Source of the DNA: Deltaproteobacteria bacterium
Lineage (GTDB): Bacteria; Myxococcota_A; Polyangia; Polyangiales; JADJMO01
DNA length: 64,000 nucleotides
Assembly: GCA_025363655.1 (NCBI GenBank)
Contig: JANYDK010000116.1
Location: 62,001 to 126,000, forward strand
Direction: 5' to 3'
Shown here: positions 42,743-60,353 of the stretch, one piece after another
Position numbering within the stretch: the stretch's first letter is position 1
Layout of the letters: each line of letters starts with the position of its first letter
Notes under the pieces: model-generated
Seen by the model: only the letters and a program-made list of their open reading frames with translations
Told to the model about the DNA's origin: nothing
Database searches by the model: none
Made by a program: the position numbers and the translations under genes

Positions 42743-43630
42743 TCAGCGCGTCGCGATCAGTCGCTCGAGGCCGTCGAGGCGTTGCAGCACGAACCGCTCG
42801 GTCGGCGTCAAATCGGCCGCGCGTTTGCGCTGGTCGACGAGGTACACGCGAAACGCGTTGAGATCGAAGCCACGCATCTTGCGGGCGGCGACATAGAGCT
42901 CGTCGACGATCGAGGCCGGCGGAAGGGCGCCACGCAAGGCATAGAGTTGGAGCGTGTAGTCGCCCCACGAGCCCTTGCCGGTGCCCGACGCGAGACGCGC
43001 GGAAAAGCGCGCCGCGAGGTCGATCGACTCGGGCGCGGCGTCTTTGCCCGATTTGAGATCCGTCAGGAGCTCTTCGAGACCATTGCGGAGGAGACGTTCG
43101 GCGCTCTCGGGGTTGCCGAGCGCGAGGGCTTTGTCGGCGACGCCCCCGAGGAGACGCAACGCTTCGCCGCGCCGCGGGCGATCGATGGTCATCTCTTCTT
43201 GCGCGACGCTGATCGCCGGCGAAGCCATCGGCGTCACGATCGGCGGATCGGGCGGACCGCTCTTGGCGGCGACGGGCACCGAGACCATCGTCACTGGACC
43301 GCCAGGGCTCGGCTCCTTGCTGTTCCAGGTGCGACGCGGTGTCTCGATTTCGCTGAGCGCGGAGAGGGTCATCTCTTGCGCGCCGATGGTGACGCGATCG
43401 CCCTCTGCGAGACGCGTGCGCGCGCCGATGCGCTGCCCGTTGACGAGCACGCCGTTGCGAGAGCCCGCGTCCTCGACGAAGACGTCGTCGTCACCGACCA
43501 AGAGGAGGGCGTGCCTCCTCGATACGAGAGGATCGTCGAGCGAGAGCTGGCAATCGGCGGAGCGCCCGATGACGAACGTCCCGGGGAAGAGCTCCAAGTC
43601 GTGCTTGAGGTAGCGGAGCCGGAAGCGCAT
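42743..43630 (-). CDS. FHA-domain protein A of a tandem pair
   Basis: 295 residues. Residues 1-90 are an FHA domain with GTFVIGRSADC, PLVSRRHALL and GSRNGVLVNG, covering the Arg, Ser-x-x-His and Asn of the phosphothreonine site. A linker (90-140) is Pro/Gly-rich. The C-terminal 150 residues are helical, with repeated Leu and Arg positions, and are unassigned. No membrane segment. It is separated by 6 bp from a paralogous FHA gene transcribed in the same direction. Confidence 0.87.
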   Translation of the reverse strand: MRFRLRYLKHDLELFPGTFVIGRSADCQLSLDDPLVSRRHALLLVGDDDVFVEDAGSRNGVLVNGQRIGARTRLAEGDRVTIGAQEMTLSALSEIETPRRTWNSKEPSPGGPVTMVSVPVAAKSGPPDPPIVTPMASPAISVAQEEMTIDRPRRGEALRLLGGVADKALALGNPESAERLLRNGLEELLTDLKSGKDAAPESIDLAARFSARLASGTGKGSWGDYTLQLYALRGALPPASIVDELYVAARKMRGFDLNAFRVYLVDQRKRAADLTPTERFVLQRLDGLERLIATR

Positions 43631-43636
43631 CGAACG

Positions 43637-45010: not shown

Positions 45011-46279
45011 TCAGAAGAGTCGGGCGGCGACGCCGTCGGTCGCGAGACGCCGCGCCGGGGGGATGCGCACCACGTCGCCCTCGCGCTCGAGGGTGCCTTC
45101 ACGCACCAACTTCTCGACTTCTCGGGTGCGCTCGGCGGTGAAGACGTCTTCGCGGGCGAGGCCCAGCTCACGTGCTTGCGCGCCGAGGTCGAGGCCATCG
45201 GCGAGGCGCAGTCCGAGCATGATGCGTTCGCGAAGGAGCGTCTCGGCGTCGAGCGGCTCGCGGGTGACGGTGACCTCGGCGAGTGAGTGTCTCGTCGCCT
45301 CGACGTAGCGTGCGGGATCGGGATCGTCGCGATAGCGGACGCCTCGGCGCGGCGAGCCCTCGTCGAAGCCGAATCCATAGGCCGCGCAGCCGAGCCCGAC
45401 GTAGGCCGCGCCGTGCCAGTAGCCGAGGTTGTGACGCGCCTCGCAGCCCGGGCGTGCGTAGTTGGAGACCTCGTAGTGACGAAGGCCGCGCGCGCCCAGC
45501 GTCGCCTCGATGGCGAGGAAGGCGTCGCAGGTGGCGTCCTCGGGGGCGATCGGGAGCTTGCCTCGACGGGAGAGCTCGCCGAAGCGTGTGCCCGGCTCGA
45601 TGGTGAGCGCGTACGCAGAGAGGTGCTCGAGCCCTTCGTCGGCGAGCTCGCCAGCGTGTCGCGCAGCCTCCTCGGGGCTCTGATCGGGGAGCCCGAAGAT
45701 GAGATCGGCGGAGACCCGCGCACCCGATCGGAGTGCCGCCTGCAGGCTCGTTCGCGCGCCCTCGATGTCGTGCAATCGACCGAGAAATTTCAGCTGTTTC
45801 GCGTCGAGCGACTGCACGCCCACGGACAGACGATTGACGCCGGCAGCGACGAGATCGCGCGCCCGCGCTTCGTCGAGCGAGGTCGGGTTGCACTCGGCGG
45901 TGATCTCGACGCCGCTCGCTGCGTGCGGGAAGGCGGCGAGAAGCGCCTCGAGCACGCGCGCGATCGCCGAGGGCTCCCATAGAGAAGGAGTGCCGCCGCC
46001 GAGGAAGACCGTCGTCAGCTCATGTCCTCCGAAGGGCTCGCCCGCGGCGGTGCGGAGGTGGATTTCACGAATGACAGCGTCGGCGTACCCGGCGTGATCG
46101 ATGGCCGCACGCTCCGTCTTGAAGGAGACGAAGTCGCAATACGGGCACTTTTCCAGGCACCACGGGAAGTGAACGTACGCGTGGAGGGGCGGGGGCACGT
46201 GGGCTCGGAGTTCGACGTGGACGGTGCGGGTCGTGAGATGCGGCAAAGTGCCGCGCGAATCGTTCGGATTTCGCTGCAC
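45011..46279 (-). CDS. hemW: HemW-type radical SAM protein
   Basis: 422 residues. The radical SAM cluster motif is CLEKCPYCDF (CxxxCxxC) at about residues 41-48, preceded by AYVHFPW. GGGTPSLW, GVQSLDAKQLKFLGR and DLIFGLPDQ are typical HemW/HemN motifs. The C-terminal HemN domain is present. Family members are haem chaperones or, in HemN, oxygen-independent coproporphyrinogen oxidases. The CPYCDF motif and length favour HemW. The start GTG at 46279 is uncertain within about 30 codons. Confidence 0.92.
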   Translation of the reverse strand: MQRNPNDSRGTLPHLTTRTVHVELRAHVPPPLHAYVHFPWCLEKCPYCDFVSFKTERAAIDHAGYADAVIREIHLRTAAGEPFGGHELTTVFLGGGTPSLWEPSAIARVLEALLAAFPHAASGVEITAECNPTSLDEARARDLVAAGVNRLSVGVQSLDAKQLKFLGRLHDIEGARTSLQAALRSGARVSADLIFGLPDQSPEEAARHAGELADEGLEHLSAYALTIEPGTRFGELSRRGKLPIAPEDATCDAFLAIEATLGARGLRHYEVSNYARPGCEARHNLGYWHGAAYVGLGCAAYGFGFDEGSPRRGVRYRDDPDPARYVEATRHSLAEVTVTREPLDAETLLRERIMLGLRLADGLDLGAQARELGLAREDVFTAERTREVEKLVREGTLEREGDVVRIPPARRLATDGVAARLF

Positions 46280-46332
46280 CGATCGCGCTCACCGAATTGC
46301 ACTCGGGCCGCGGTGGGCGTACCACGTCGGGC

Positions 46333-47304
46333 ATGAAGACGCTTCACGCCCTCTCCTTCTTCGCTTTGTTCGGCGGCGTCGCCGCGCTCGCCACCGGCTT
46401 CGTGGGCTGCAGCAGCTCCAGCGGCGGTGACTCCCCGGCCGACACCGGCACGGGAGTCGACGACACTGGCACCGGCGTCGACACGACGCCCCCTCCGACG
46501 GACACCAACCCGAAGGACACGACGCCGAAGGACACGGCGCCCCTCACCTGCGACAAGGCGCTTCCGAGCACCTTCGCCTGCCCCGCCATCACCGCGAGCG
46601 ACAAGGGAACGCCGGGCACGACCTGCACCGAGGCCGACCTCCAAGCGATGGTCACCGCGTGCGTCGGCACCAAGTTCAGCATCGCCAGCGGCTGTGACGC
46701 CTGGAAGACCGCGCACCCTGCGTGCAACACCTGTGTCGCCACCTGGGCGATCGCCGAATCGGTCATCCCTGGGAAGATCTACGCCGATCGCGACAAGTGC
46801 CTCTACCAGACCTTCGACCCCGACTGCCAGACGGCTTGGAAGTGCATGTTCGCCTGCGACGACGCCGTCTGCACGGGCTGCAACACGAGCGCTGGCACCA
46901 GCTCCGACGGCAAGACCAGCGAGTTCCAAGAGTGCGCGAACAAGGAGCGTGCGCGCGGTGGAACGGTCGTCGCCAAGGGCGTTTGCTACGACAAGGCGGC
47001 CGGCAAGGCCGACAGCTGCTTCAGCGGAGGCAGCTTCGACTCGTGCATCGTCGACGAACTCTTCAGCCCGTCGGGCGCAAGCGGCGCTCCGGACGTCCCC
47101 AAGATGCAGGCTGGTCTCCTCGAGTTCTACCGCGGCGCTTGTCGTGACAACGCCGTCTGGACGCACGCCAAGGACACCTGCTCCTCGCCGCCTTGCCCGG
47201 TCTCCGACGCCGGCACCGACGCGGGCGACACTGGCACCGACGCAGCGTCCGACGCCGACGCCGGCACGGCCGACGTCGCCACCGACGCTGCCGACGCGGG
47301 CTGA
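46333..47304 (+). CDS. Cys-rich lipoprotein with Asp/Thr stalks
   Basis: 323 residues, ATG 46333. Signal ends in TGFVGCSS, lipobox Cys at about residue 26. An Asp/Thr/Gly/Pro stalk (30-75) precedes the folded region. About 20 Cys residues lie at 80-295 (ACNTCVATW, CLYQTFDPDCQTAWKC, CDDAVCTGC). A second Asp/Thr/Ala stalk ends the protein (DAGTDAGDTGTD and similar). Head and stalks resemble a surface-displayed protein; no catalytic motif. An upstream in-frame start would only extend into the hemW promoter. Confidence 0.8.
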   Translation: MKTLHALSFFALFGGVAALATGFVGCSSSSGGDSPADTGTGVDDTGTGVDTTPPPTDTNPKDTTPKDTAPLTCDKALPSTFACPAITASDKGTPGTTCTEADLQAMVTACVGTKFSIASGCDAWKTAHPACNTCVATWAIAESVIPGKIYADRDKCLYQTFDPDCQTAWKCMFACDDAVCTGCNTSAGTSSDGKTSEFQECANKERARGGTVVAKGVCYDKAAGKADSCFSGGSFDSCIVDELFSPSGASGAPDVPKMQAGLLEFYRGACRDNAVWTHAKDTCSSPPCPVSDAGTDAGDTGTDAASDADAGTADVATDAADAG

Positions 47305-47320
47305 GCGAGCAGCTTCGCCA

Positions 47321-47362
47321 GAGGGCCCTTTCGCAGCAATGCGAGGGGGCCTTCGCATTTTT
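47321..47362. terminator. Bidirectional intrinsic terminator with GNRA loop
   Basis: A 15-bp stem (47321-47335 with 47340-47354, mostly Watson-Crick with a few G-U or mismatched pairs) is capped by GCAA, a GNRA tetraloop, and followed by TTTTT at 47358-47362. It lies between the convergent lipoprotein and kinase genes. Confidence 0.78.
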
Positions 47363-47382
47363 GTCGTCAGCGTGTCGCGTCT

Positions 47383-48558
47383 TCAGCGCTGCGCGACGTA
47401 CGCGGCCGACACGGCGAGGCGAGCGCGGCGGAGCTCGTCGTTTTCGAGCGGCTTGCCGAGCTTCACCGCGGTGGCGACGCGCTTGGCTTGCACCGCCAAC
47501 TGCTGCTGCGCTTGCCAGCCTCGATCGGTGTGGATGCCGAGCCCGATGCGGAAGCTGTCGCCGAACTCGACGGCCGTCGGAAAGCGCTGATCGGGGCTCT
47601 TTTCGAGCGCGCGCGCGAGGAGCATCTCGAGCTCGATGGGCGCCTGCGGCAAGAGCGTGCGCAGCTTCGGCGCGGGCGTCTGGACGTGATCGCAGGCGAC
47701 GAGCCAGTCGCTCCGATCTTCGACCGGGAAGGGGAGCCGACCCGTGAGCATCTCGAAGAGCATCACCGCCGAGCTGTAGAGATCGCTGCGTGCGTCGAGC
47801 GGCGGCTTGCCTTGGATTTGCTCGGGGCTCATGTACGCGACGGTGCCGGCGATGAGGTTCCCGGTGGCGGCGGCGACGCTCGCGGGGATGCGCGCGATGC
47901 CGAAGTCGGTGAGCTTGGCGACGCCGTCGGTGCGGAGGAGGACGTTGTCCGGTTTGACGTCGCGGTGGACGACGCCGAGCACGTGACACGCGCCGAGCGC
48001 ACCGAGCACTTGTTGGAAATAGTGCCACGCGCGATCGAAGGGAAGACAAGGGAGGATGCGCACGCCGGGGCTGACGTGGCGGCGCGCGTCGGCTTCGTGT
48101 CCTTTGCGCTCGATGAGCGAGCCGAGGGTCTCGCCCTTGACGAACTCCATCGCGATCGCGCTCGTGCCGCCGACGTCGGCGAGGCCGTAGAAGCGGACGA
48201 CGTTGGGGTGATCGAGCGCCGCGAGAATGCGCGCTTCGTTGGTGAAGAGATCGCGGATGCGACCTTGCTGCGAGAACGTCGGGTGGAGGATCTTGATCGC
48301 GGCCTCGAGCGGCGGCTGTACGCCGGCCCCTCCCCGCGGGTGCAACCAACCGTGATGGACGACGCCCATCCCACCTTCGCCGAGGATCGGCCCGAGGACT
48401 GCGAGCGCCCAGCCGAAGTCGATTTGCGAGCCCTGACCGGTCATTCCGATCGGGTGCACCGCCGTCGGCAGAGGTACGCCGCACCAGGGACACGAGCGAT
48501 AGCCCTGCGCGGACGTGCGTCCGCAGGACATGCATCGCTGGCTGAGTTCGTCGCTCAC
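47383..48558 (-). CDS. Ser/Thr kinase with N-terminal zinc ribbon
   Basis: 391 residues, GTG start. Residues 9-26 form a CxxC(10)CxxC zinc ribbon (C9, C12, C23, C26). The kinase domain, about 50-335, has GEGGMG at 60-65, Lys89, HRD at 188-190 (catalytic Asp190) and DFG at 208-210, and is an RD kinase that looks active. No membrane helix, so it is soluble. The C-terminal 50 residues are helical and basic. It is divergent from an FHA gene whose N-terminus is also a zinc ribbon, across 87 bp. It probably supplies phosphothreonine marks to the FHA readers in that gene set. Confidence 0.93.
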   Translation of the reverse strand: MSDELSQRCMSCGRTSAQGYRSCPWCGVPLPTAVHPIGMTGQGSQIDFGWALAVLGPILGEGGMGVVHHGWLHPRGGAGVQPPLEAAIKILHPTFSQQGRIRDLFTNEARILAALDHPNVVRFYGLADVGGTSAIAMEFVKGETLGSLIERKGHEADARRHVSPGVRILPCLPFDRAWHYFQQVLGALGACHVLGVVHRDVKPDNVLLRTDGVAKLTDFGIARIPASVAAATGNLIAGTVAYMSPEQIQGKPPLDARSDLYSSAVMLFEMLTGRLPFPVEDRSDWLVACDHVQTPAPKLRTLLPQAPIELEMLLARALEKSPDQRFPTAVEFGDSFRIGLGIHTDRGWQAQQQLAVQAKRVATAVKLGKPLENDELRRARLAVSAAYVAQR

Positions 48559-48645
48559 CGTGCCACCGTGCGAGGAAACGTACCATCCTCGGTTTCCCTT
48601 CGCCTTTGGAGCGACCACCGAGCGATCGCGATATGCTGCGCGGCC

Positions 48646-49479
48646 GTGACGTTCTGCGCCCGCTGCCGAGCTCCCGTGCTGACGACGGCGCGTTTTTGCG
48701 GGGAGTGCGGCGCGTGGATCGTTCCCGAGGCGCCCGAGGCCCAGCTGTCGCCGGAAGCGACGACCGGGTCGGCGCCGCTGCCGAAGGACGTGGCGCAGGC
48801 CTTGGCGCTCGCAAGCCAGACCCTCGAGAGCGGTGGAGGGCCGAAAAAGACGGCCATTCGTAGCACGCCGCCGCCGCCCAACCTCGACGCGCCCGGCGGC
48901 AAGAAGACGTTCGGTCGCACCGACGTCGCGCGCATCTCCTCGATGCCCGAGCTCCACGAGGCGGCCCGTAAATCGACGCCGCCGCCGGCTTTGAGCACGC
49001 CTTCGTCCTCGGGCAATTTCCCCATCGCCTCCCTTCCCAGCCTCGAGGCCCCACAGTCCCGTGCGGCCAAGACCGTCGCCGACGCGATGGCCCCGGTGAT
49101 GTCTGCGCACACGATCGCGCGGCAAAAAAAGCCACTCGGCGCGTTCCTCGTCTCCTTCCAGTACGAGCCCCTCGGCGCCTATTGGCCGCTCGGCCTCGGG
49201 GCCAACCTCGTCGGTCGCGCGGGAGCCCGCCCCGACCTCGACATCGGCCTGGCGGACATCACCGTCTCGAATGAGCAGGCGGTCATCACCGTCGAACCGA
49301 ATGTGCTGGGCATCGAGGACCGCGGCTCGAAAAACGGCACTTTCGTCAATGGCCGGGCCCTCCTCGGCGGGGCGAGGGCGCCGCTGAAGCACGGGGACAG
49401 GGTACGATTCGGCAGTTTCGAGACTGTCGTGGTCGTCGTACCGTACGTTGTCAGCGGGCCCGGCCTGTCGGGTGAGTGA
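48646..49479 (+). CDS. Zinc ribbon-FHA adaptor protein
   Basis: 277 residues, GTG start. Residues 4-25 are a zinc ribbon (CARC and CGEC pairs). A long disordered Pro/Ser/Thr region (about 30-160) could be a kinase substrate. The C-terminal FHA domain (about 165-270) has LVGRAGARPD, TVSNEQAVI and GSKNGTFVNG. The usual Ser-x-x-His appears as SNEQ, so the His is replaced by Gln. It may bind ligands differently. It is first in a co-directional four-gene set. Confidence 0.85.
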   Translation: MTFCARCRAPVLTTARFCGECGAWIVPEAPEAQLSPEATTGSAPLPKDVAQALALASQTLESGGGPKKTAIRSTPPPPNLDAPGGKKTFGRTDVARISSMPELHEAARKSTPPPALSTPSSSGNFPIASLPSLEAPQSRAAKTVADAMAPVMSAHTIARQKKPLGAFLVSFQYEPLGAYWPLGLGANLVGRAGARPDLDIGLADITVSNEQAVITVEPNVLGIEDRGSKNGTFVNGRALLGGARAPLKHGDRVRFGSFETVVVVVPYVVSGPGLSGE

Positions 49480-49535
49480 TTCGGGTGAGTGAAGCGCGAC
49501 GTTGGCAGCGGGTTGGTCGTTCGGAGGATGAGACG

Positions 49536-52520
49536 ATGATGGAAGCTCGGAGCAGGTTGGAACGTCGCGTAGGCCCCCTTGGCGTGGGGATGCTTCTCGC
49601 GCTCGGCGCGACGACGTTGGCGCCGCGGAACGCGCACGCCGAGAACATGATCTCGAGCTTCATCCGCATCGATTCGGAGCCGCAGGCCGACGAGAAGAAG
49701 GGGACGCCCAGCGTTCCCATGCTCGTCGAGCTCGGCACCCCGACGCCGATCTCGAGCTTCCAGGAAGGCTGCTTCTCGGGAGGTGCGGGGATCAAGCCGA
49801 CCGCGGCTGCGCTCTCCTGCATGTCGGCGAAAATCGAGAAGGACGGCTATTACAAGCAGTTCGAGTTCCCGAAAGAGAATGCGACCATCCTCGCGAAGGT
49901 CGGCGAAGAAGAGTACCCGATGGAGGTGCTCGACGCGGTCGCCTTCAAGGACGCGACCGCGGCCAACGCTGGCATCGCCTGGCTCATCCTCCTCGACGCC
50001 TCTTCCTCGGTCGACGTCAGTCGTTGGAGCGAAGAGCAAGACGCCGCCGAGCAGATCATCAAGTCGATGGGCGCCAACGACGCCGTGATGGTCCGCATCA
50101 TGGACGACAAGGGCGTCCGCGCGCACACCAATTGGCTCAGCTCCGGGAGCAAGGCCAAGGCGATCACGCTCATTCGTTCGATCCCGAAGTCGTTCCCTTC
50201 GGCCGGCAAGGTCGACGGCCTCATCGGGCGCATCGAAAAAGAGGCTCTCGGCGGCTTCCAAGAGCTCTTCGACAAAGGCGTCGAGGGCAACGAAGACTCG
50301 CTGCCCATCCTCCAGAGCATCGTCATTCTCTCGGACGGCGGCGACACCAGCGCCACCGGTCTCGGCGCGCCCGCCGAAGCGAAGGTCCTCCACGACAAGC
50401 TCGTCAAAGGAAACGACCTCGGCTCGCTCACGGACTTCACGCGCCTGCCGCTCCCGGTGACCACGCTCTGGTTCCCCGATCCCAAGCTCACTGGCGGCCT
50501 CGGCAACATCGACGAGGTGAAGACCGAGAGCGCGTTCCAGTGGATGTCGAACCTCGCGACCCCCGAGGTTGGCGGATACTTCGACGTCATCCAAGCGGGC
50601 GAGACCGGCAAGGGCGCGAAGATCGCGCGCATCATCCGGAACCGCTTCGACAACATGTACTACGTGAGCGCGCAGGCGAGCTGCCTCGCGCCCTCGACGC
50701 AGCAGACCTTCACGATGGCGTTCACCGACACCAAGTCGAAGATCGCCCCGGCGAAGTGGGAAAAAATCGGCATCGCGTACAACTTCGCGAAGTGGGTGCT
50801 CGACGTCGACAAGAAGAAGACGGAGGCCGCCGCCGCCTCCAAGCCGCTGCAAATCGGCGTCGAGTTCGACGTCTTCGGCAACTTCTGCTGGGGCGCCAAC
50901 GCGGGTCAGGCCGAGGCGTATTTCCTCACCGAGGCCGACGCGCCGGAGGTGAAGAAGGCCGTCGCCGACAAGACCGGCAAGAAGGGCGCTTCGCTCCTCC
51001 AGAACCTGCAGGCCAAGGGACAGAAGGCCGAGACGCTCAGCGTCACGCCCAACGCCGGCCACTTCCGCGTGCCCAACACGCCGGCGCTCTTTCCCGACGG
51101 CAAGGACTCCTTCTTCCTCAACGTCGTCGTCTTCGACAACAAGGCGAAGCGCGTCAGCACGCTCGATCAGAAAGGTGTCTTCCAGCTCAAGGCGGTGAAG
51201 GCGCCGGTCAACAAGCTGCTCATCGTCGGCGCGATCGGCGGCGGCGTGGTGCTCATCCTCCTCATCGCCATCCTCGCGCGCAGCGGCGGTGGTGGAAATG
51301 GACGCAGCAGCAAGCGTCGTCGTGGTGGCGCACCCGCGCCCGGGCCGATGCCCGGGCAACCTCCAGGGCCGATAGCTGCCCCGCTTCTCTCGCGTCCGCC
51401 GCCGGGACCCGCGCCGCCATTGCCGCCGATGGCTCCCGTCGGCAGCGCGCCGATGACCGCGATGGCGCCGGCGGTGGGGTTCTCTCCTCCGCCGACGGCG
51501 ATGGTCCCCTCGCCGGGCTTCGCGCAGACCGCTCCTGCCTCCGGCATCGGCGGCATCGGTGGCACCGCGATCGTGCCTTTTTCTCCGCCACCCGCCGTTG
51601 GCGGAGGCACTGCCTTCATGCACGCAGTCGCGCAGCCGCAGCCGCAGCCGTATCCGCCGTCCGCCGCGCAGACGGCAGCTGCGCCGTTGCCGATGCCGGT
51701 GCAGATGCCGATGCCGGTGCAGATGCCAACGCAGATGCCGAGCTCACCGGCGCCGCCGGTGCAGACGCAGTGGGTGCCGCCGCCTGTGCAAGTGCCGCCG
51801 ATGCCGCAGAAGCCGGCTTCGATGCCGCCGCCCTCGTACGCTGCAGGGCAAGCCAACGTCACCGTTCCGCCGGCGAACGTCCCGCAAATCGGCGGCTCGC
51901 TCCCCGCCGCCGAGCTCGCCGCGCCGCGCCCCGGTCTGCACGCGCAACAGAAGGGCGCGACCTCGTTTCCGACGACGTGTCCCAATCCGGCGTGTCGCAA
52001 GCAGGTGATGATTCCTCCCGGTGGCTCCGCGCAGTGCGCATTTTGCGGCACGCTCGTCGACGCCCACGGCGTGGCCATCTCTCCCATTCAAGGAGGCGCG
52101 GGCTTCGGTCTCACGGGTCACGTCTCGCCCGAGGCCGCCGAGCGCGCGGCCGGTGGCAAGAAGCCGGTGACCGCGCTCCTCGAGCCGCAACCGTACGCGC
52201 CGGGAGCGCAGGGAGCGCAGCCTCAGCAGGCCGTGTCGCTGATGGGAAAGGAAGGCACCTTTCGCATTCTTCCGGGCATCGAGAGTCGCGCTGGCCGTGA
52301 CGGCACCCTCTGCTCGATCGCGCTCGGTGAGCCGCGCGTCTCCGGCGTGCACGCGACCCTCAAGCTCGAGGCCGGCACCCTCTACGTGCGCGACGACCGT
52401 TCGCACAATGGCACCTTCGTCAACGGCAATCGTGTCTCGCCCGGCGTTTGGACGCCGGTGCCCGGGGGCAGCCAACTCAAATTCGGTCCAGCCGAATTTA
52501 CCGTGCGCCATGAGACGTGA
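49536..52520 (+). CDS. Exported VWA protein with membrane helix, cytosolic zinc ribbon and FHA domain
   Basis: 994 residues; I chose ATG 49536 because CGGAGGA lies 7 nt before it (a GTG overlapping the previous stop is also open). Signal peptide 1-35 ending NAHA. A VWA domain about 145-370 has the metal-site DASSS near 153 and LSDGGDTS. A second beta region runs to about 555. One membrane helix at 562-585, then a Pro/Met-rich linker of over 200 residues. A zinc ribbon is at about 815-838 and an FHA domain at about 905-990 (DRSHNGTFVNG). Topology therefore puts VWA outside and the FHA inside, a plausible transmembrane adaptor. Confidence 0.88.
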   Translation: MMEARSRLERRVGPLGVGMLLALGATTLAPRNAHAENMISSFIRIDSEPQADEKKGTPSVPMLVELGTPTPISSFQEGCFSGGAGIKPTAAALSCMSAKIEKDGYYKQFEFPKENATILAKVGEEEYPMEVLDAVAFKDATAANAGIAWLILLDASSSVDVSRWSEEQDAAEQIIKSMGANDAVMVRIMDDKGVRAHTNWLSSGSKAKAITLIRSIPKSFPSAGKVDGLIGRIEKEALGGFQELFDKGVEGNEDSLPILQSIVILSDGGDTSATGLGAPAEAKVLHDKLVKGNDLGSLTDFTRLPLPVTTLWFPDPKLTGGLGNIDEVKTESAFQWMSNLATPEVGGYFDVIQAGETGKGAKIARIIRNRFDNMYYVSAQASCLAPSTQQTFTMAFTDTKSKIAPAKWEKIGIAYNFAKWVLDVDKKKTEAAAASKPLQIGVEFDVFGNFCWGANAGQAEAYFLTEADAPEVKKAVADKTGKKGASLLQNLQAKGQKAETLSVTPNAGHFRVPNTPALFPDGKDSFFLNVVVFDNKAKRVSTLDQKGVFQLKAVKAPVNKLLIVGAIGGGVVLILLIAILARSGGGGNGRSSKRRRGGAPAPGPMPGQPPGPIAAPLLSRPPPGPAPPLPPMAPVGSAPMTAMAPAVGFSPPPTAMVPSPGFAQTAPASGIGGIGGTAIVPFSPPPAVGGGTAFMHAVAQPQPQPYPPSAAQTAAAPLPMPVQMPMPVQMPTQMPSSPAPPVQTQWVPPPVQVPPMPQKPASMPPPSYAAGQANVTVPPANVPQIGGSLPAAELAAPRPGLHAQQKGATSFPTTCPNPACRKQVMIPPGGSAQCAFCGTLVDAHGVAISPIQGGAGFGLTGHVSPEAAERAAGGKKPVTALLEPQPYAPGAQGAQPQQAVSLMGKEGTFRILPGIESRAGRDGTLCSIALGEPRVSGVHATLKLEAGTLYVRDDRSHNGTFVNGNRVSPGVWTPVPGGSQLKFGPAEFTVRHET

Positions 52521-52636
52521 GCCGAAGCCGATGCGAGGTTTTGCGCGCAATGAGCGTGCGGACGCCGGCCACCCTGGGTACCATGGGACGCCCTCGATGC
52601 TCGATCCCGTGAACGAGACCTTCCGGAGCCTTGCCG

Positions 52637-54109
52637 ATGTCGGCGAGTGATCCCCGTGCAGAGGTGGCGACCCAGGTCGCGCTCGGGACGCAGCTCCCTG
52701 CGCTCGAGGTGGCCATCGCCACTGATTCCGGGCGCATGCCGGAGAAGCAGGTCAACGAAGACTGCGCGCTCGCTCGCGCGACACGTCATGGTCACCTCGT
52801 CGTCGTCTGCGACGGCATGGGCGGCCACGTCGGCGGCAAAGAAGCTTCGAACATCGCCGTCGAGACCATCTTCCACGTCGTCGACAACGCCGGACAGGGC
52901 CCGCCGGCGCAAATCCTCGCCGAGGCCGTGCGAGAGGCGAATCGCCAGGTGCATGGTCGACACACGACGATGCCCGAGCTCAAGGGCATGGGCTCGACCT
53001 GCGTCGCCATCCTCACGCATCCCGGCGGCACCGAGGTCGCGCACGTCGGTGACTCGCGCGTCTACTTGCTGACGCAGCAGCAGCTCTACCAAGTCACCAA
53101 AGATCACTCGCTCGTCCAGCGTCTCGTCGACGCCAACATGCTCACGCCGGAAGAGGCGGCGAGTCATCCGAGCGCCAACCAAATCACCAACGCGCTCGGC
53201 ATGAAGCCCGAGGTCGAGGTCGAGGTCCGGCCGCAGCCGTTCCCCTTCGGCGCCGGCGACACCTTCATTCTCTGCTCCGACGGGCTCTCCGACGAAATCG
53301 GACAGCAGGACATCGTGCAAATCCTCGCGCCCTGGCCGTCGGCGCCCGAGGCCGCGCAGCGGATGGTCGACCTCGCGAACGCGCGCGGTGGGCACGACAA
53401 CATCACCGTCGCGATCGTTCGTTTTCCGGGCGGCGGTCCCTTCCTCGCGCCGACGCCGACGAGCGCGAGTCGTTCGGCGACGCCGGTCGCTTCGCCGATC
53501 CTCGCCATCGCAGCTGCCACCGCGACGATGGACATGTCGGCCGTTCCTCCCGACGTGCACCAGCCTCAGCAGCCGATTCCGCCATCGGGTCCGCAGCAGG
53601 GAATGACGCCGATGGCGCCGCCGGCCGCGATGGTGCCGCAGTTCACGCCGCCGCCGCCGCCCGCTGCGTCGCCGGGAATTCCCACCTTCACGCCGGCCGA
53701 AGACTCCGGCCACAACCAGCGTCGCCGTGGCGGCTTCGGTTGGATCATCCTGGTGGTCGTGGTGCTCCTCGCGGGCGCGGCTGCTGCGTACTACGTGCTC
53801 GCGATCCACGGCAAGACGCCGACGTCGAGTGAGCCGCCGAAGCCCGTGCTCGACGACGAGCCCTCCGCCGAGCCGACCAAGACGGCGAAGAGCTCGAAGC
53901 CGAAGCCCGCAGTCGTCGACGATCCTCCGCCCGATCCTTCGACGACGAGCTCGACGAAGAAGCAGCCTCCGGGGCCAGGTCCATCGCCCTCGCCGAAGCC
54001 GACTTCGACCGACACGCAGAAGGTCGACCCGACCACCTCGTCGACGGCGCTCGAACCGACGCCGAAGCCGACGCTGCCGCCCATCCCCTCACCGCACCCC
54101 GACGAATAA
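52637..54109 (+). CDS. Membrane-anchored PP2C Ser/Thr phosphatase
   Basis: 490 residues, ATG 52637. Residues about 25-270 are a PP2C domain: NEDCALA, VCDGMGGHVGG, HVGDSRVYL, TKDHSLVQ, SDGLSDE and GGHDNITV, so metal ligands are all present. A Pro-rich linker leads to a membrane helix at about 368-390. A Pro/Ser/Thr-rich external tail of about 100 residues follows. The catalytic domain faces the cytoplasm. It is the only PP2C in the window and would reverse phosphorylation by the nearby kinases. Confidence 0.95.
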   Translation: MSASDPRAEVATQVALGTQLPALEVAIATDSGRMPEKQVNEDCALARATRHGHLVVVCDGMGGHVGGKEASNIAVETIFHVVDNAGQGPPAQILAEAVREANRQVHGRHTTMPELKGMGSTCVAILTHPGGTEVAHVGDSRVYLLTQQQLYQVTKDHSLVQRLVDANMLTPEEAASHPSANQITNALGMKPEVEVEVRPQPFPFGAGDTFILCSDGLSDEIGQQDIVQILAPWPSAPEAAQRMVDLANARGGHDNITVAIVRFPGGGPFLAPTPTSASRSATPVASPILAIAAATATMDMSAVPPDVHQPQQPIPPSGPQQGMTPMAPPAAMVPQFTPPPPPAASPGIPTFTPAEDSGHNQRRRGGFGWIILVVVVLLAGAAAAYYVLAIHGKTPTSSEPPKPVLDDEPSAEPTKTAKSSKPKPAVVDDPPPDPSTTSSTKKQPPGPGPSPSPKPTSTDTQKVDPTTSSTALEPTPKPTLPPIPSPHPDE

Positions 54110-54132
54110 GCGTCACAGGTCACGGAGCACGC

Positions 54133-57100
54133 ATGATCCCCGGAATTGGCAAGGCGCAGCTCATCGTCGGCAGCGCACCGAATTGCGACATCGTCCTCCA
54201 AGGCCCCGGTGTCGGCGCGCAGCACTTGATGCTGTCGATGCAGGGCAACGCGCTCGTCGTCACCGATCTCGGTACGCCGGGCGGAAGCTCGCACGCTGGC
54301 ATGCAGCTGGCGCCGCAGTCGGCGACGCCGATTCAGCACGCCGCGCCGCTCACCGCCGGACAGGTGCAGGTCCCGCTCAATCACCCGCTCGTCGGGCTCT
54401 TGCTCCTCATCAACGGTTCGGCGCCGCCGCAGCCGGGGCGCATCTCGCTCGGCCGCGAGCCGACGCGGGTCAACGTCGCCGTCTCGCACCCTGCCGTGTC
54501 GGGCCTGCACGCGACCATCGATTTCAGCTCCCGCACGGTCACCGATCACGATTCGAAATCCGGCACGTACATCGGGGGAAATCGCATTCCGCCGAACCAG
54601 GCGATGCCCCTCGATGCCTCGGGAATCCTCCAGCTCGGTCCGGTGACGTTGTCGCTCGGCTCGTTGCAGCCGCTCGTGCAAGCGGCGCCCAACTTCGGCG
54701 GAGGCTCGCTCCCCGCGGCTGCGCAAGCGCCGATGCCGATGCCGATGCCGATGCCGATGGCAGCGCCGGCGGTGGCGATGCCGCCGATGCCAGGCGCACC
54801 CGGTGGCACCGACCTGCCTCGCTCGAGCGGCAAGGCCCGCACGATGATCGGCGAGGCCGTCTTCGGTGGCGGCTTGGCGATGATCAACATCGGCCGCACG
54901 CCCGACAACCAGATCGTCGTCCAGCACGCGCAGGTGTCGAGCAAGCACGCGGCGCTCGTGCGGGAGGCCGACGGCAAGCTCTACCTGATGGACAAGGGCA
55001 GCGCGAACGGCACCTACGTGCGCGGCGCCCGCATTCCCTCCGGCCAACGCGCCGAAGTGTCGAATGGCGAGAAGGTCTACATCGGCCCGATGCCGCTGGT
55101 GATCCAGATCGCCGGGCAGAAGGTCGAGGCCATCGTCGAGGTCGACGCCAACGCCTGGGCCGGCAAGCCGACCTGCTCGATCGAAGCGTGGAACCTCTAT
55201 CTCGAGGTCCCCGATCGCGACAACCCCGGCGCGCAGAAGGTGCTGCTCGACAGCGTCAGCTTCAAGGCCCTCCCCGGCGACCTCATCGCCCTCATGGGTC
55301 CGTCGGGCGCCGGTAAGACGACGCTGCTCATGACCCTCAACGGCTACCAAGCGCCGACGAGCGGACAGGTGCGCATCAACGGCGAAGATCTCTACGAGAT
55401 CTACGACTTGCTCCGCGGCTCCATCGGCTACGTGCCGCAGGACGACATCGTCCACCCCGAATTGACGGTGTGGGAAGCGGTTCGCTACTCGGCGAAGTTC
55501 CGGCTTCCGCCCGACATGAGCGAGGAGGAAATCGATCAGCGCGTCGAGCAGACGCTGAAAGATCTCGGCCTCGAGGCGGTGCAGAACCTGCAAATCGGCA
55601 AGCCCGAGAAGAAGGTCCTCTCCGGCGGACAGCGCAAGCGCGTCAACATCGCGCTCGAGCTGGTGACCGATCCGATCATCATGTTCCTCGACGAGCCGAC
55701 CTCCGGTCTCGCTGCCGACGACACCACCGCGCTCATTCTCCTGCTCAGCGATCTGGCGAAGAAGACGGGCAAGACGATCATCGTCACCATCCACCAGCCA
55801 GCCAAAGACGAGTACGAGAAGTTCAACCTCGCGCTCGTCATGGGCTACGGCGGCGTGCCGATGTACTTCGGTCCGACCGCGCGCGACTCCTACAAGTTCT
55901 TCGGACACTTCCTGGAGACGCAAGGGAAGCCGAACAACATCGACAACCCGCGCGACATGTTCGACATGCTCAATCTCCGCGAGCGCAAGGTGCTCGACGA
56001 GATGCGCACGCGTGATCCGAACGTGCAGCGCGCCACGGGCCGGCTCGCCGCGGCCAAGCAGTGGAAGGAAGAGTTCTTCGCGCAGAACAACGCCATCTTC
56101 GCCAAGATGTACTCGGGCGCGCGCACCATCGGCGCGGCGGAGGGGCACAAGACGGGCACCTTCCATCGCGGCTCCCCGCCCTTCTTCCGGCAGCTCGGGC
56201 TCCTGATCTCCCGTTATTTCAAGGTCAAAGTGCGCGACCGTGCGGGCACCGCGATCATGCTCTTGCAGGCCCCGATCATCGGCGCGCTCCTCTGCGTCGT
56301 CTTCGGTCCACAGAAGCCGTCGACGCCTCCATGGTGCATCGCCGCGCTCCAAGGGCTGAAGAGCATCGCCGGCAAGGGCGGGGAAGACGGCGGCGACGCC
56401 AGCGACTTCCTCAAAGGGCACGACGTCCGCGACGCGGCCAACTCGCTCTTCTTCGTCGTCGTCTCCGCCGTCTGGTTCGGGACCTCGAACGCGGCGCGCG
56501 AGATCGTCAGCGAGCGCGCCATCTATCTCCGCGAGCGCATGGTCAACCTGCGGCTCAGCAACTACGTGCTCTCGAAGTACATCCTCCTCAGCATCATCTG
56601 CGTCGTGCAGTGCGCGATGCTGCTCGGCATCGTCTCGCCGATCCTCGGCTTCCACGGCCTCACCGACGGGCATCCCGACGTCTTCTTCCAGCAGCTCGGC
56701 ATCCTCACGCTCACCGCGATGGACGCCGTCGCGCTCGGGCTCTTGCTGTCGTCGGTCGTCGGCTCGAGCGAGGCGGCGATGGCCCTGACGCCGATCGCGC
56801 TCATCCCGCAGGTCGTCCTCGGCGGCACGCTGGTGCCGATGACCACCAATCAAATCCTCGAGTACCCGATGTGGGCGGTCCCCGCGCGCTGGGGCTTCGA
56901 GGGCTCGATCACCCCCGAGCGTCTCCTCAACGCGAGTGAGAGCGGGTGGCTCTTCACCCTGCCGAAATCGAAGGAGCTGGCCGATCCGAACGCGGCCGCG
57001 CTCCTCGAGCAGCTCTTCCTCAAGGACAACGGCGACAAGCTCCAATTCGTCTGCGCCAAGGCCGAAATAGCCGCCAAACAAGGCGCCAACTCGGTCAACG

Positions 57101-57237
57101 GAAACTTCCCCTTCGAGGGCGCGTGGGGCTTCACCGAGTTCTCTCAGCAGTGGATCCCGTTCGCCGTGCTCGGCACGATGACGCAGTTCACGCTGATCAT
57201 GATGATGATCATCCTCCGCAGGAAAGACCCGGTCTAG
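54133..57237 (+). CDS. ABCG-like transporter with N-terminal FHA repeats
   Basis: 1034 residues. The N-terminal 335 residues hold up to three FHA-like repeats. The first (1-85) is degenerate. The second (about 103-180) has ISLGREPT, AVSGLHATI and SKSGTYIGG. The third (about 245-325) has NIGRTPDNQ, SSKHAALV and GSANGTYVRG and looks complete. An ABC ATPase follows: Walker A GPSGAGKT at 389-396, signature LSGGQRKR near 496, Walker B IIMFLDEP near 515. About six membrane helices end the protein. Domain order (ATPase before membrane) is that of ABCG half-transporters. Cargo unknown. Confidence 0.92.
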   Translation: MIPGIGKAQLIVGSAPNCDIVLQGPGVGAQHLMLSMQGNALVVTDLGTPGGSSHAGMQLAPQSATPIQHAAPLTAGQVQVPLNHPLVGLLLLINGSAPPQPGRISLGREPTRVNVAVSHPAVSGLHATIDFSSRTVTDHDSKSGTYIGGNRIPPNQAMPLDASGILQLGPVTLSLGSLQPLVQAAPNFGGGSLPAAAQAPMPMPMPMPMAAPAVAMPPMPGAPGGTDLPRSSGKARTMIGEAVFGGGLAMINIGRTPDNQIVVQHAQVSSKHAALVREADGKLYLMDKGSANGTYVRGARIPSGQRAEVSNGEKVYIGPMPLVIQIAGQKVEAIVEVDANAWAGKPTCSIEAWNLYLEVPDRDNPGAQKVLLDSVSFKALPGDLIALMGPSGAGKTTLLMTLNGYQAPTSGQVRINGEDLYEIYDLLRGSIGYVPQDDIVHPELTVWEAVRYSAKFRLPPDMSEEEIDQRVEQTLKDLGLEAVQNLQIGKPEKKVLSGGQRKRVNIALELVTDPIIMFLDEPTSGLAADDTTALILLLSDLAKKTGKTIIVTIHQPAKDEYEKFNLALVMGYGGVPMYFGPTARDSYKFFGHFLETQGKPNNIDNPRDMFDMLNLRERKVLDEMRTRDPNVQRATGRLAAAKQWKEEFFAQNNAIFAKMYSGARTIGAAEGHKTGTFHRGSPPFFRQLGLLISRYFKVKVRDRAGTAIMLLQAPIIGALLCVVFGPQKPSTPPWCIAALQGLKSIAGKGGEDGGDASDFLKGHDVRDAANSLFFVVVSAVWFGTSNAAREIVSERAIYLRERMVNLRLSNYVLSKYILLSIICVVQCAMLLGIVSPILGFHGLTDGHPDVFFQQLGILTLTAMDAVALGLLLSSVVGSSEAAMALTPIALIPQVVLGGTLVPMTTNQILEYPMWAVPARWGFEGSITPERLLNASESGWLFTLPKSKELADPNAAALLEQLFLKDNGDKLQFVCAKAEIAAKQGANSVNGNFPFEGAWGFTEFSQQWIPFAVLGTMTQFTLIMMMIILRRKDPV

Positions 57238-57974: not shown

Positions 57975-60353
57975 ATGACCGAAGACGCGCGCGACGAGTG
58001 GCTCTTCGGCTGGGACAAGACCCCGGGGATCGTCTCGGTGTGGGCCGAGCGCGAGGGTCACGTCTTCATCTGGCGTCGCCTCCCCGAGACCGGCGAGCTC
58101 GTGCGCGAAGAGGCTCGTTTTCGGCCGTGGATGCTCTTGACGTCGCTCGCCGACCTGGCGCATCTCGGAGAACGACTGCGCCCCGAAAAGCCGCGAGAGC
58201 GTGAGATTCCGCCAGGACACGTGACCCATCGCGAGCTCCGCGGCTCGCACGCGTTGCGCCATCTCGTGCGCGCGAGCGATGGTCGCGAGCTGATGCGCGC
58301 GGTCCTCACCGGCGCCAGTCGTCGACTCGGTCAGGAGATTCGTGATCTGCGTCAGCTCGGCGGCGACTCGGCGCTCTCGTTGCCGCCCGAAGAGCAGTAC
58401 CTCGCGGCCTCGGGTCGTACTTTCTTCCGCGGGCTCACGCTCGACTCGCTCCGCCGGATGCAGATCGATCTCGAGACCACCGGCCTCGATCCCGTCAGGC
58501 ATCGCATCTTCCTCGTCGCCTTGCGGACGCCCGCCGGCATCACGGAGACCCATGAAATCACGGTCGATGGTGACGAAGGGGAGCGCTCGCTGCTCGTGCG
58601 GGTGATTCGTCGCGTGGTCGAGCTCGATCCCGACGTGATCGAGAACCACAACCTCCATGGCTTCGATCTTCCCTTCCTCGTGCATCGGGCGAAGGTGCTG
58701 GGGGTGCCGCTGACGCTGGCGCGACTCGGCGGAACGTCGCTCCGCGAACGGCGCACGGCGCGCGGCGGCGTGCGCTACACGATGCCTGGACGCGAGCTCA
58801 TCGACACGCTCGACGCCGTTCGTCGCCACGATTTCTCCGCGCGCGATCTCCCGGGGCACGGGCTCAAGGCGGTGGCGCGGCACTTCGGGCTCAGCGGGCT
58901 CGATGGTCAGCCGCGTGAGCTCATCCCTGGTGCGCGCGTCCACGAGGTCTTCCTCCGCGATCCAGCGCGGGTGCGACGTTACGCCGAGGCCGACGTCGAA
59001 GAGGCAGCCGGTCTCGCGCGGCTCCTCGGCGGCGCTGCCTTCGCCCTCGCGCAGATGGTGCCGCGTCGGTACGAGCGTCTCGCCGATGCGGGTCCGGCGA
59101 CCGGGGTGATCGATCCTTTGCTCGTGCGTGCCTATCTTCGGCGCGGTGCCGCGTTGCCGACGCGCGAGCTCGGCGATGGGACCACGCACCAGGGGGCGGC
59201 GCTGCACCTCTTCGCCACCGGCGTCGCGCATCGCATCGTCAAGGCAGACGTCGCCAGCCTCTATCCCTCGTTGATGCGCGCGTATTCCATCGGTCCACAG
59301 CGCGATCGGCTCGGAGCCCTGCTCTTTCTGGTCGATCGGCTCGTCGAGCTGCGGCTTGCGGCGAAGGCGAAGGCGAAGCAAGCGACGGTTGGCAGCAGCG
59401 AGCAGCACACGCAAGAGGCGCTGTCGGCGGCGATGAAGCTGGTCGTCAACTCCGCGTACGGGTACCTCGGCGCGGCGGGGTTGACGCGTTTCTCCGACGT
59501 GCACGCGGCCAACGAGGTGACGCGTCGTGGTCGCGGAGTGCTCTCTCTCATCTGTCGCGAGCTCGCCGCGCGGGGCGTCACCTTGCTCGAGGGCGACACC
59601 GATGGCGTCTATTTTTCGGTGCCGGAATCGTTCACCGAGGTCGACGAGCGGCGCGTCGTCGCCGAGGTCGCAGCGCTGCTGCCTCCGCTGGTGCGCCTCG
59701 AATACGACGGACGCTACGCCGCGATGCTCTCGCACGAGCCGAAGAACTACGTGCTGCAGTCGTACGATGGGCGGGTCCGGCTCCGTGGCGTCGCCTTTCG
59801 TTCGAGCCGCGCCGAGCGCTACGGCGTCGCCTTTCTCGAGCAAGCGGTGGTGCCGCTCCTCGCCGGCGATCTGGTGGCGGTGCGGCAGCTGTACGTCGAC
59901 ACCGCGCTCGCCCTCCGCGATCGCAAAGTCGCGACGCTCGAGGTCACCGCGCGGGTTCGAATCACCAAGAGCAAGGACGAGTACTTCGCTGCCGGTCGTC
60001 GCGAGCTCACCTACGAAGCGATGCTCGCCGCCGGGCGCACCGAATGGAAGGTCGGCGAGAAGATTCGCGTCTATCGCGCGGGCGGCGGACGCGCGGCGCT
60101 CTTGGCCGAAGACGACGAGGACGCGCGCGACGAAGAACGCACCGACGGACGCGACTACGACGTCGACTACTACCAGCGGCTCCTTCGCGAGACCTTCGCC
60201 GAGAGGCTCTCGCGCGCGATGACGCCGGACGATTTCGCCGAGGTCTTCGCCGATCCCGCGCAGGGCGTTCTCTTCAGCAAATCACTGTCGATGGCGAGGC
60301 CGATTCTCACGCCGCTCGACGTCGACGTGAGCGAGCCAGCTGGAGCACCGTGA
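57975..60353 (+). CDS. Family B DNA polymerase (Pol II-like)
   Basis: 792 residues, close in length to E. coli Pol II. Proofreading exonuclease motifs: DLETTG near 164 (Exo I), ENHNLHGFDLPF (Exo II) and a YAEAD (Exo III). Polymerase motifs: DVASLYPSLM near 425 (A), KLVVNSAYGYLG near 488 (B), EGDTDGVYF near 539 (C). Motif C has DTDG instead of the usual DTDS; the two catalytic Asp are retained. A role in damage-tolerant or repair synthesis is known for the family. No other replication or SOS gene is adjacent. Confidence 0.92.
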   Translation: MTEDARDEWLFGWDKTPGIVSVWAEREGHVFIWRRLPETGELVREEARFRPWMLLTSLADLAHLGERLRPEKPREREIPPGHVTHRELRGSHALRHLVRASDGRELMRAVLTGASRRLGQEIRDLRQLGGDSALSLPPEEQYLAASGRTFFRGLTLDSLRRMQIDLETTGLDPVRHRIFLVALRTPAGITETHEITVDGDEGERSLLVRVIRRVVELDPDVIENHNLHGFDLPFLVHRAKVLGVPLTLARLGGTSLRERRTARGGVRYTMPGRELIDTLDAVRRHDFSARDLPGHGLKAVARHFGLSGLDGQPRELIPGARVHEVFLRDPARVRRYAEADVEEAAGLARLLGGAAFALAQMVPRRYERLADAGPATGVIDPLLVRAYLRRGAALPTRELGDGTTHQGAALHLFATGVAHRIVKADVASLYPSLMRAYSIGPQRDRLGALLFLVDRLVELRLAAKAKAKQATVGSSEQHTQEALSAAMKLVVNSAYGYLGAAGLTRFSDVHAANEVTRRGRGVLSLICRELAARGVTLLEGDTDGVYFSVPESFTEVDERRVVAEVAALLPPLVRLEYDGRYAAMLSHEPKNYVLQSYDGRVRLRGVAFRSSRAERYGVAFLEQAVVPLLAGDLVAVRQLYVDTALALRDRKVATLEVTARVRITKSKDEYFAAGRRELTYEAMLAAGRTEWKVGEKIRVYRAGGGRAALLAEDDEDARDEERTDGRDYDVDYYQRLLRETFAERLSRAMTPDDFAEVFADPAQGVLFSKSLSMARPILTPLDVDVSEPAGAP

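Follow-up and report, generated by a model that had tools for sequence, protein, structure and literature searches.

A conserved block of zinc-ribbon-FHA, vWA-FHA, PP2C and FHA-ABCG transporter genes resembles, by anatomy, an expanded Rv1747 system

The window is a stretch of 64,000 nucleotides of contig JANYDK010000116.1 from a Deltaproteobacteria bacterium, a soil-type relative of Polyangium (assembly GCA_025363655.1), and it displays a five-gene block at 47383-57237 in which a Ser/Thr kinase gene is divergent from four co-directional genes. An initial annotation had been made from the DNA letters alone, and the coordinates, strands and domains that it gave for the block all hold up when checked by ORF and Pfam analysis, as does the close spacing of the four co-directional genes (gaps of about 56, 116 and 23 bp). 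The block is composed as follows:

47383-48558, minus strand: soluble Hanks-type Ser/Thr kinase of 391 aa with an N-terminal C4 zinc ribbon (Pfam Pkinase 4.7e-39; no TM segment), divergent from the other four genes
48481-48534, minus strand: zinc ribbon of the kinase, CMSC...CPWC, read from the sequence
48559-48645: divergent intergenic region of 87 bp between the kinase and zinc-ribbon-FHA genes
48646-49479, plus strand: soluble zinc-ribbon-FHA protein of 277 aa with an ArnA-like architecture (FHA 1.1e-15; Zn_Ribbon_1 1e-4, below the cut-off score)
49207-49413, plus strand: FHA domain of the zinc-ribbon-FHA protein (Pfam residues 188-256)
49536-52520, plus strand: predicted exported protein of 994 aa with the layout vWA, TM helix, disordered linker, zinc ribbon, FHA (Pfam, alignment, AlphaFold2 and TM prediction); GGAGG precedes the ATG at 49536
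52637-54109, plus strand: PP2C phosphatase (Stp1/IreP-like) with a C-terminal TM segment and a Pro-rich tail (PP2C_2 1.7e-18)
54133-57237, plus strand: FHA-FHA-FHA-ABCG half-transporter of 1034 aa (Pfam FHA x3 2e-36, ABC_tran 1e-33, ABC2_membrane 8e-21)

Pfam returns a significant match for every catalytic domain and FHA domain of the block, while TM prediction places one segment each in the vWA protein and the PP2C and leaves the kinase and the zinc-ribbon-FHA protein without any. The K, HRD and DFG motifs of the kinase are intact by inspection, and its N-terminal CxxC...CxxC zinc ribbon is kept in every kinase ortholog that was read. Likewise, the DGMGG, GDSR, SDGLSD and HDN motifs of the PP2C are intact by inspection, and the protein scores 1.8e-66 against NF033484 (224 bits, under the cut-off of 230). 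A promoter scan of the 87-bp divergent region (48559-48645) found no sigma-70-like site. Two neighbouring genes were also observed. About 4 kb beyond the kinase, a stand-alone FHA protein of about 295 aa with a canonical N-terminal FHA domain is encoded at 42746-43633 on the minus strand, within a spurious plus-strand ORF of 1166 aa. Directly downstream of the block, 57975-60353 (plus strand) encodes a DNA polymerase B-family-like protein, with Pfam exonuclease and polymerase domains of modest scores, which was not seen at that spot in relatives.

The vWA protein combines the following elements:

49941-50660, plus strand: vWA domain, predicted extracytoplasmic, with the MIDAS sequence DASSS (AlphaFold2 model m2a078a710f74)
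51216-51272, plus strand: TM helix, with the positive side (SKRRR) after the helix
51291-51977, plus strand: Pro-rich linker in which the motif T-[AP]-[FYMI]-x-P recurs, a candidate phosphothreonine array
52290-52487, plus strand: FHA domain with the canonical GR/SxxH/NG site (Pfam residues 939-1004 and alignment)

The FHA domain is well supported by Pfam (1e-12). The vWA domain of the window protein falls under the Pfam cut-off (E 0.076), and VWA_2 matches 4 of 14 homologues, with a best value of 1.3e-5. Despite the sub-threshold score, the assignment made in the initial annotation is confirmed by the predicted fold (VIA Z about 17), the AlphaFold2 model (mean pLDDT 83) matching vWA folds with Z values of 15-17. 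Judging from the helix and the charges that follow it, the vWA domain would be extracytoplasmic and the zinc ribbon-FHA C terminus cytoplasmic; four cysteines that are invariant in the vWA region of the homologue alignment are in keeping with such a placement. Many relatives have lost the MIDAS DxSxS motif, and a metal-dependent ligand site was therefore rejected as a general trait of the protein. In the linker, the T-[AP]-[FYMI]-x-P motif is found three times in the window against 0.27 in shuffles and nine times in G003, another genus of the window's family, against 0.28, in a shuffle test which is descriptive because the motif was defined after inspecting the same linkers. Two truncated copies carry three motifs each, and the single motif of G004 is not above chance. 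None is present in the Polyangiaceae vWA-protein linkers, several of which have no threonine at all, and the array therefore cannot be a general phosphosite; having failed as a module-wide site, it is retained as a trait of the window's family only. Besides, one Polyangiaceae genome has a second, shorter vWA paralog that is not part of the block (G050:C8:24041-25327).

The transporter displays three FHA domains of differing quality ahead of its ABCG part:

54151-54300, plus strand: FHA1, with a degenerate phosphothreonine site (G-R replaced by G-S or G-A in 15 of 15 order-level homologues)
54424-54654, plus strand: FHA2, with GR and SxxH kept and Asn replaced by Ser in 15 of 15 homologues
54841-54843, plus strand: codon of Thr237, a candidate phosphosite, invariant in 15 of 15 aligned homologues
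54886-55086, plus strand: FHA3, with a canonical phosphothreonine-binding site (GR/SxxH/NG invariant in 15 of 15 aligned transporters)
55246-55704, plus strand: ABC nucleotide-binding domain (Pfam ABC_tran, residues 372-524)
56188-56907, plus strand: ABC2 transmembrane domain of ABCG type (Pfam ABC2_membrane, residues 686-925)

The AlphaFold2 model of the transporter has a clear ABCG fold, with Foldseek matches to ABCG1/2/5/8/16/25, and FHA3 matches the Rv1747 FHA domain in the PDB (6cah, 2e-6). We downgraded Thr237 as a phosphosite because it is modelled inside the first β strand of FHA3 (AlphaFold2) and because its motif is missing in transporters outside the window's order. FHA1 conserves residues of its own (GSAP...GPGV..H) despite its degenerate site, as seen in an alignment of the window protein with 14 homologues (A1), and this conservation suggests that it may have a role other than phosphothreonine binding. 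In a third family (f6) the transporter is present with the same FHA3 site, and no vWA or kinase ortholog was detected in the genomes searched; the transporter thus does not need the rest of the module. Related FHA-ABCG proteins are encoded in metagenome-assembled genomes of Acidobacteriota, Armatimonadota and Chloroflexota, several of them near kinases and one near a PP2C.

The initial annotation had proposed a search for conserved synteny, and the order of the four co-directional genes does recur in other genera and in two families, so that the block is not a product of chance. Zinc-ribbon-FHA, vWA-FHA, PP2C and FHA-ABC genes follow each other in at least nine genomes of the window's own family and of Polyangiaceae (f12), namely the window's own, G003, G037 (the L059 contig, ACE_MYX1), G050, G022, G156, G165, L055 and Polyangium sp. 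15x6 (L057), the last two being presumed Polyangiaceae from their names and similarity. A 3-5 kb insert lies ahead of the transporter in G054 and G041, and the block is reduced, or limited by contig ends, in several further genomes. A sample drawn at class level contained the vWA protein in 13 of 144 genomes, every one belonging to the window's family or to f12. A contig search with the single vWA protein as query gave no matches, and one with the transporter alignment gave the named matches. Within G003, all five genes, kinase through transporter, are flipped together with respect to HemW and the lipoprotein-like gene beside it (L032 1359-16347 compared with window 45011-57237), which is good evidence that the five genes move together there. 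As side observations, two Polyangiaceae genomes have a gene with a heavy-metal-associated-like N terminus (GMSCEGC) between PP2C and transporter (L037 9220-11740 and L039 5168-7723). G017 has a reduced block (L168 6397-9503), comprising the zinc-ribbon-FHA gene and a vWA gene whose product stops short of the FHA domain; no PP2C stands beside this pair, the genome has no kinase ortholog, and the transporter is on a separate contig.

The kinase follows the block in a family-specific manner. It is adjacent in all four testable genomes of the window's family, being adjacent and divergent in the window's own genome, G003 and G001 and adjacent across a contig break in G004. In most Polyangiaceae genomes, a zinc-ribbon kinase ortholog of 40-50% identity is encoded elsewhere, unlinked to the block; such an ortholog is present in 9 of the 12 vWA-positive genomes of that family, with no clear one in the other three. 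At E <= 1e-50, 13 of the 17 vWA-positive genomes have a clear ortholog, as against none of the 48 vWA-negative genomes checked, and this holds even where kinase and block are unlinked. The counts are confined to two related families, which may share inheritance from one ancestor, so that these are not 13 independent events. The genome also encodes many other Hanks kinases, any of which could serve the module. The initial annotation had described a self-contained five-gene circuit of writer, readers, eraser and exporter. The domain content is as claimed and the genes form a conserved unit, with the five genes kept together in the window's family; self-containment is only partly right, since the kinase is unlinked in Polyangiaceae and no vWA or kinase ortholog was detected in the genomes with the f6 transporter.

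We consider it somewhat better than an even bet that the block specifies an ABCG-type exporter governed, in its assembly or its activity, by reversible phosphorylation of threonines. We infer the topology, an outward direction of transport and four mechanistic steps. The zinc-ribbon kinase would phosphorylate the module itself, at threonine residues within the disordered linkers of its proteins. The canonical FHA domains, namely that of the zinc-ribbon-FHA protein, that at the vWA protein's cytoplasmic end and the transporter's FHA3, would bind these phosphothreonines and so draw the proteins together at the membrane, clustered around the exporter. The membrane-anchored PP2C would strip the phosphates, upon which the cluster would disperse. 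Finally, the predicted extracytoplasmic vWA domain, which a single TM helix connects to a cytoplasmic FHA domain, may report an envelope ligand or state. By analogy with Rv1747, the cargo may be an envelope lipid or glycolipid. A more speculative proposal, to which we give a low probability, is that the vWA protein is a transmembrane receptor relaying an envelope signal to the exporter via phosphothreonine clustering, the linker threonine motifs (one to nine repeats between species) acting as a tunable phosphorylation array that recruits the FHA domains of transporter and adaptor. If true, this would be an outside-in switch for an ABC exporter set by kinase and phosphatase, a class of which we know of no description.

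The most serious competitor, unlikely in our estimation, is that the zinc-ribbon-FHA, vWA-FHA and PP2C proteins form an ArnA/ArnB-like module controlling something else, e.g. gene expression, with the exporter as one of several clients or a mere neighbour. In the regulatory network of the Sulfolobus archaellum, the vWA protein ArnB, once phosphorylated by a kinase, is bound by ArnA, a zinc-finger-FHA protein (PMC6509490). The window likewise pairs a zinc-finger-FHA protein with a vWA protein in the company of a kinase and a phosphatase (ArnC/ArnD and PP2A in the Arn network), and this pair is closer to ArnA/ArnB than to the type VI secretion Fha protein. For the vWA model, Foldseek ranks ArnB within the ArnAB complex first (8s05, E 4.5e-8), although the whole-chain TM-score is low (0.27/0.39) and ArnB is absent among the best 50 VIA matches listed, which are filled by the vWA domain alone. 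The genes between PP2C and transporter in G054 and G041, and the separate contigs of vWA pair and transporter in G017, also favour this reading. However, in both families the transporter gene comes, in most genomes, immediately after the PP2C gene, and its product has three FHA domains of its own. ArnB is moreover a cytoplasmic protein with a phosphorylated C-terminal helix bundle, whereas the window's vWA domain, as predicted from the TM helix and the positive side after it, would lie outside the cytoplasm and shares its chain with an FHA domain; there is no archaellum here but an ABC transporter, and the phosphatase is a PP2C, not a PP2A.

That the FHA domains only position the transporter at envelope growth or division sites set by global Ser/Thr kinases, with no gating and with an incidental local kinase, seems to us quite improbable. 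It would account for the lone f6 transporters with their unchanged FHA3 site and for the unlinked kinase of Polyangiaceae, but it sits poorly with the co-occurrence of kinase and vWA protein (13/17 versus 0/48) and with the kinase having moved along with the block in G003. We regard as very improbable a TerY-P stress or defence triad, or a type VI secretion threonine-phosphorylation switch, to which a transporter was added. The components do overlap (vWA, PP2C and zinc-ribbon kinase in the former; kinase, PP2C and FHA protein in the latter, where gating of an envelope machine would be the analogous function), and both had been offered as parallels. The TerY-P parallel fails on kinase anatomy and on the absence of TerD: the zinc ribbon is N-terminal here and C-terminal in TerY-P, no CxxC follows the kinase domain in the orthologs, and the window's vWA domain is predicted to be exported and is fused to FHA. 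The earlier statement that no TerD-type genes are seen stands, as no match to the TerD family was obtained in the whole genome. As for type VI secretion, Pfam found no Tss family among the block's five proteins, the effector is an ABC transporter instead, and the FHA proteins are far under the Fha/TagH cut-off (TIGR03354, 27 bits against 120). PADLOC matched only generic kinase, PP2C and ABC models in the block, with no family-specific defence match, and a known anti-phage defence system was rejected on these grounds. Chance clustering has next to no credit: kinases and FHA proteins abound in Myxococcota genomes (with many first-look kinase candidates), but the same gene order recurs in independent assemblies of two families and the unit is inverted whole in G003.

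The exporter under reversible threonine phosphorylation, which we favour, has its nearest parallel in mycobacteria, and the implication in the initial annotation that a kinase-controlled FHA-ABC transporter has no named parallel was wrong. Rv1747 of Mycobacterium tuberculosis is an FHA-FHA-ABCG half-transporter encoded in an operon with the kinase PknF (PMC9312465, PMC3908365). According to these reports, Rv1747 is phosphorylated on threonines and, once phosphorylated, forms condensates more readily, PknF lowering the threshold and PstP reversing the effect. Loss of Rv1747 results in less phosphatidylinositol mannosides (PMC5549992). The design of FHA-ABCG exporter, Ser/Thr kinase and PP2C is thus already known, named and experimentally studied; in the literature that we found, it was studied only in mycobacteria, and the roles of its FHA domains are still being worked out.

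In both systems an ABCG half-transporter carries FHA domains and a disordered linker at its N-terminal end within a single chain; both also have an adjacent Ser/Thr kinase gene and a phosphatase, whose role here would be analogous. The kinase link is found at the divergent end of the block in the window's own genome, G003, G001 and G004, and is mostly missing in Polyangiaceae. In contrast to Rv1747, the window's transporter has three FHA domains, one degenerate and one half-degenerate, the kinase is a soluble zinc-ribbon protein, the PP2C is encoded in the block, and there are two further FHA proteins, one of which has a predicted extracytoplasmic vWA domain. What is new is a conserved set of four genes that includes both a vWA-TM-FHA protein and a PP2C of its own, no report of such a block being found in the open-licence papers searched. 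The vWA protein is a candidate input that is lacking in the mycobacterial gene pair, and Polyangium sp. 15x6, an environmental organism, carries the four-gene block. Altogether, the block resembles, by anatomy, an expanded Rv1747 system, a Gram-negative relative that brings its own phosphatase, adaptor and putative surface-facing vWA partner in one block and would offer a compact system for dissecting the phosphothreonine control of an ABC exporter.
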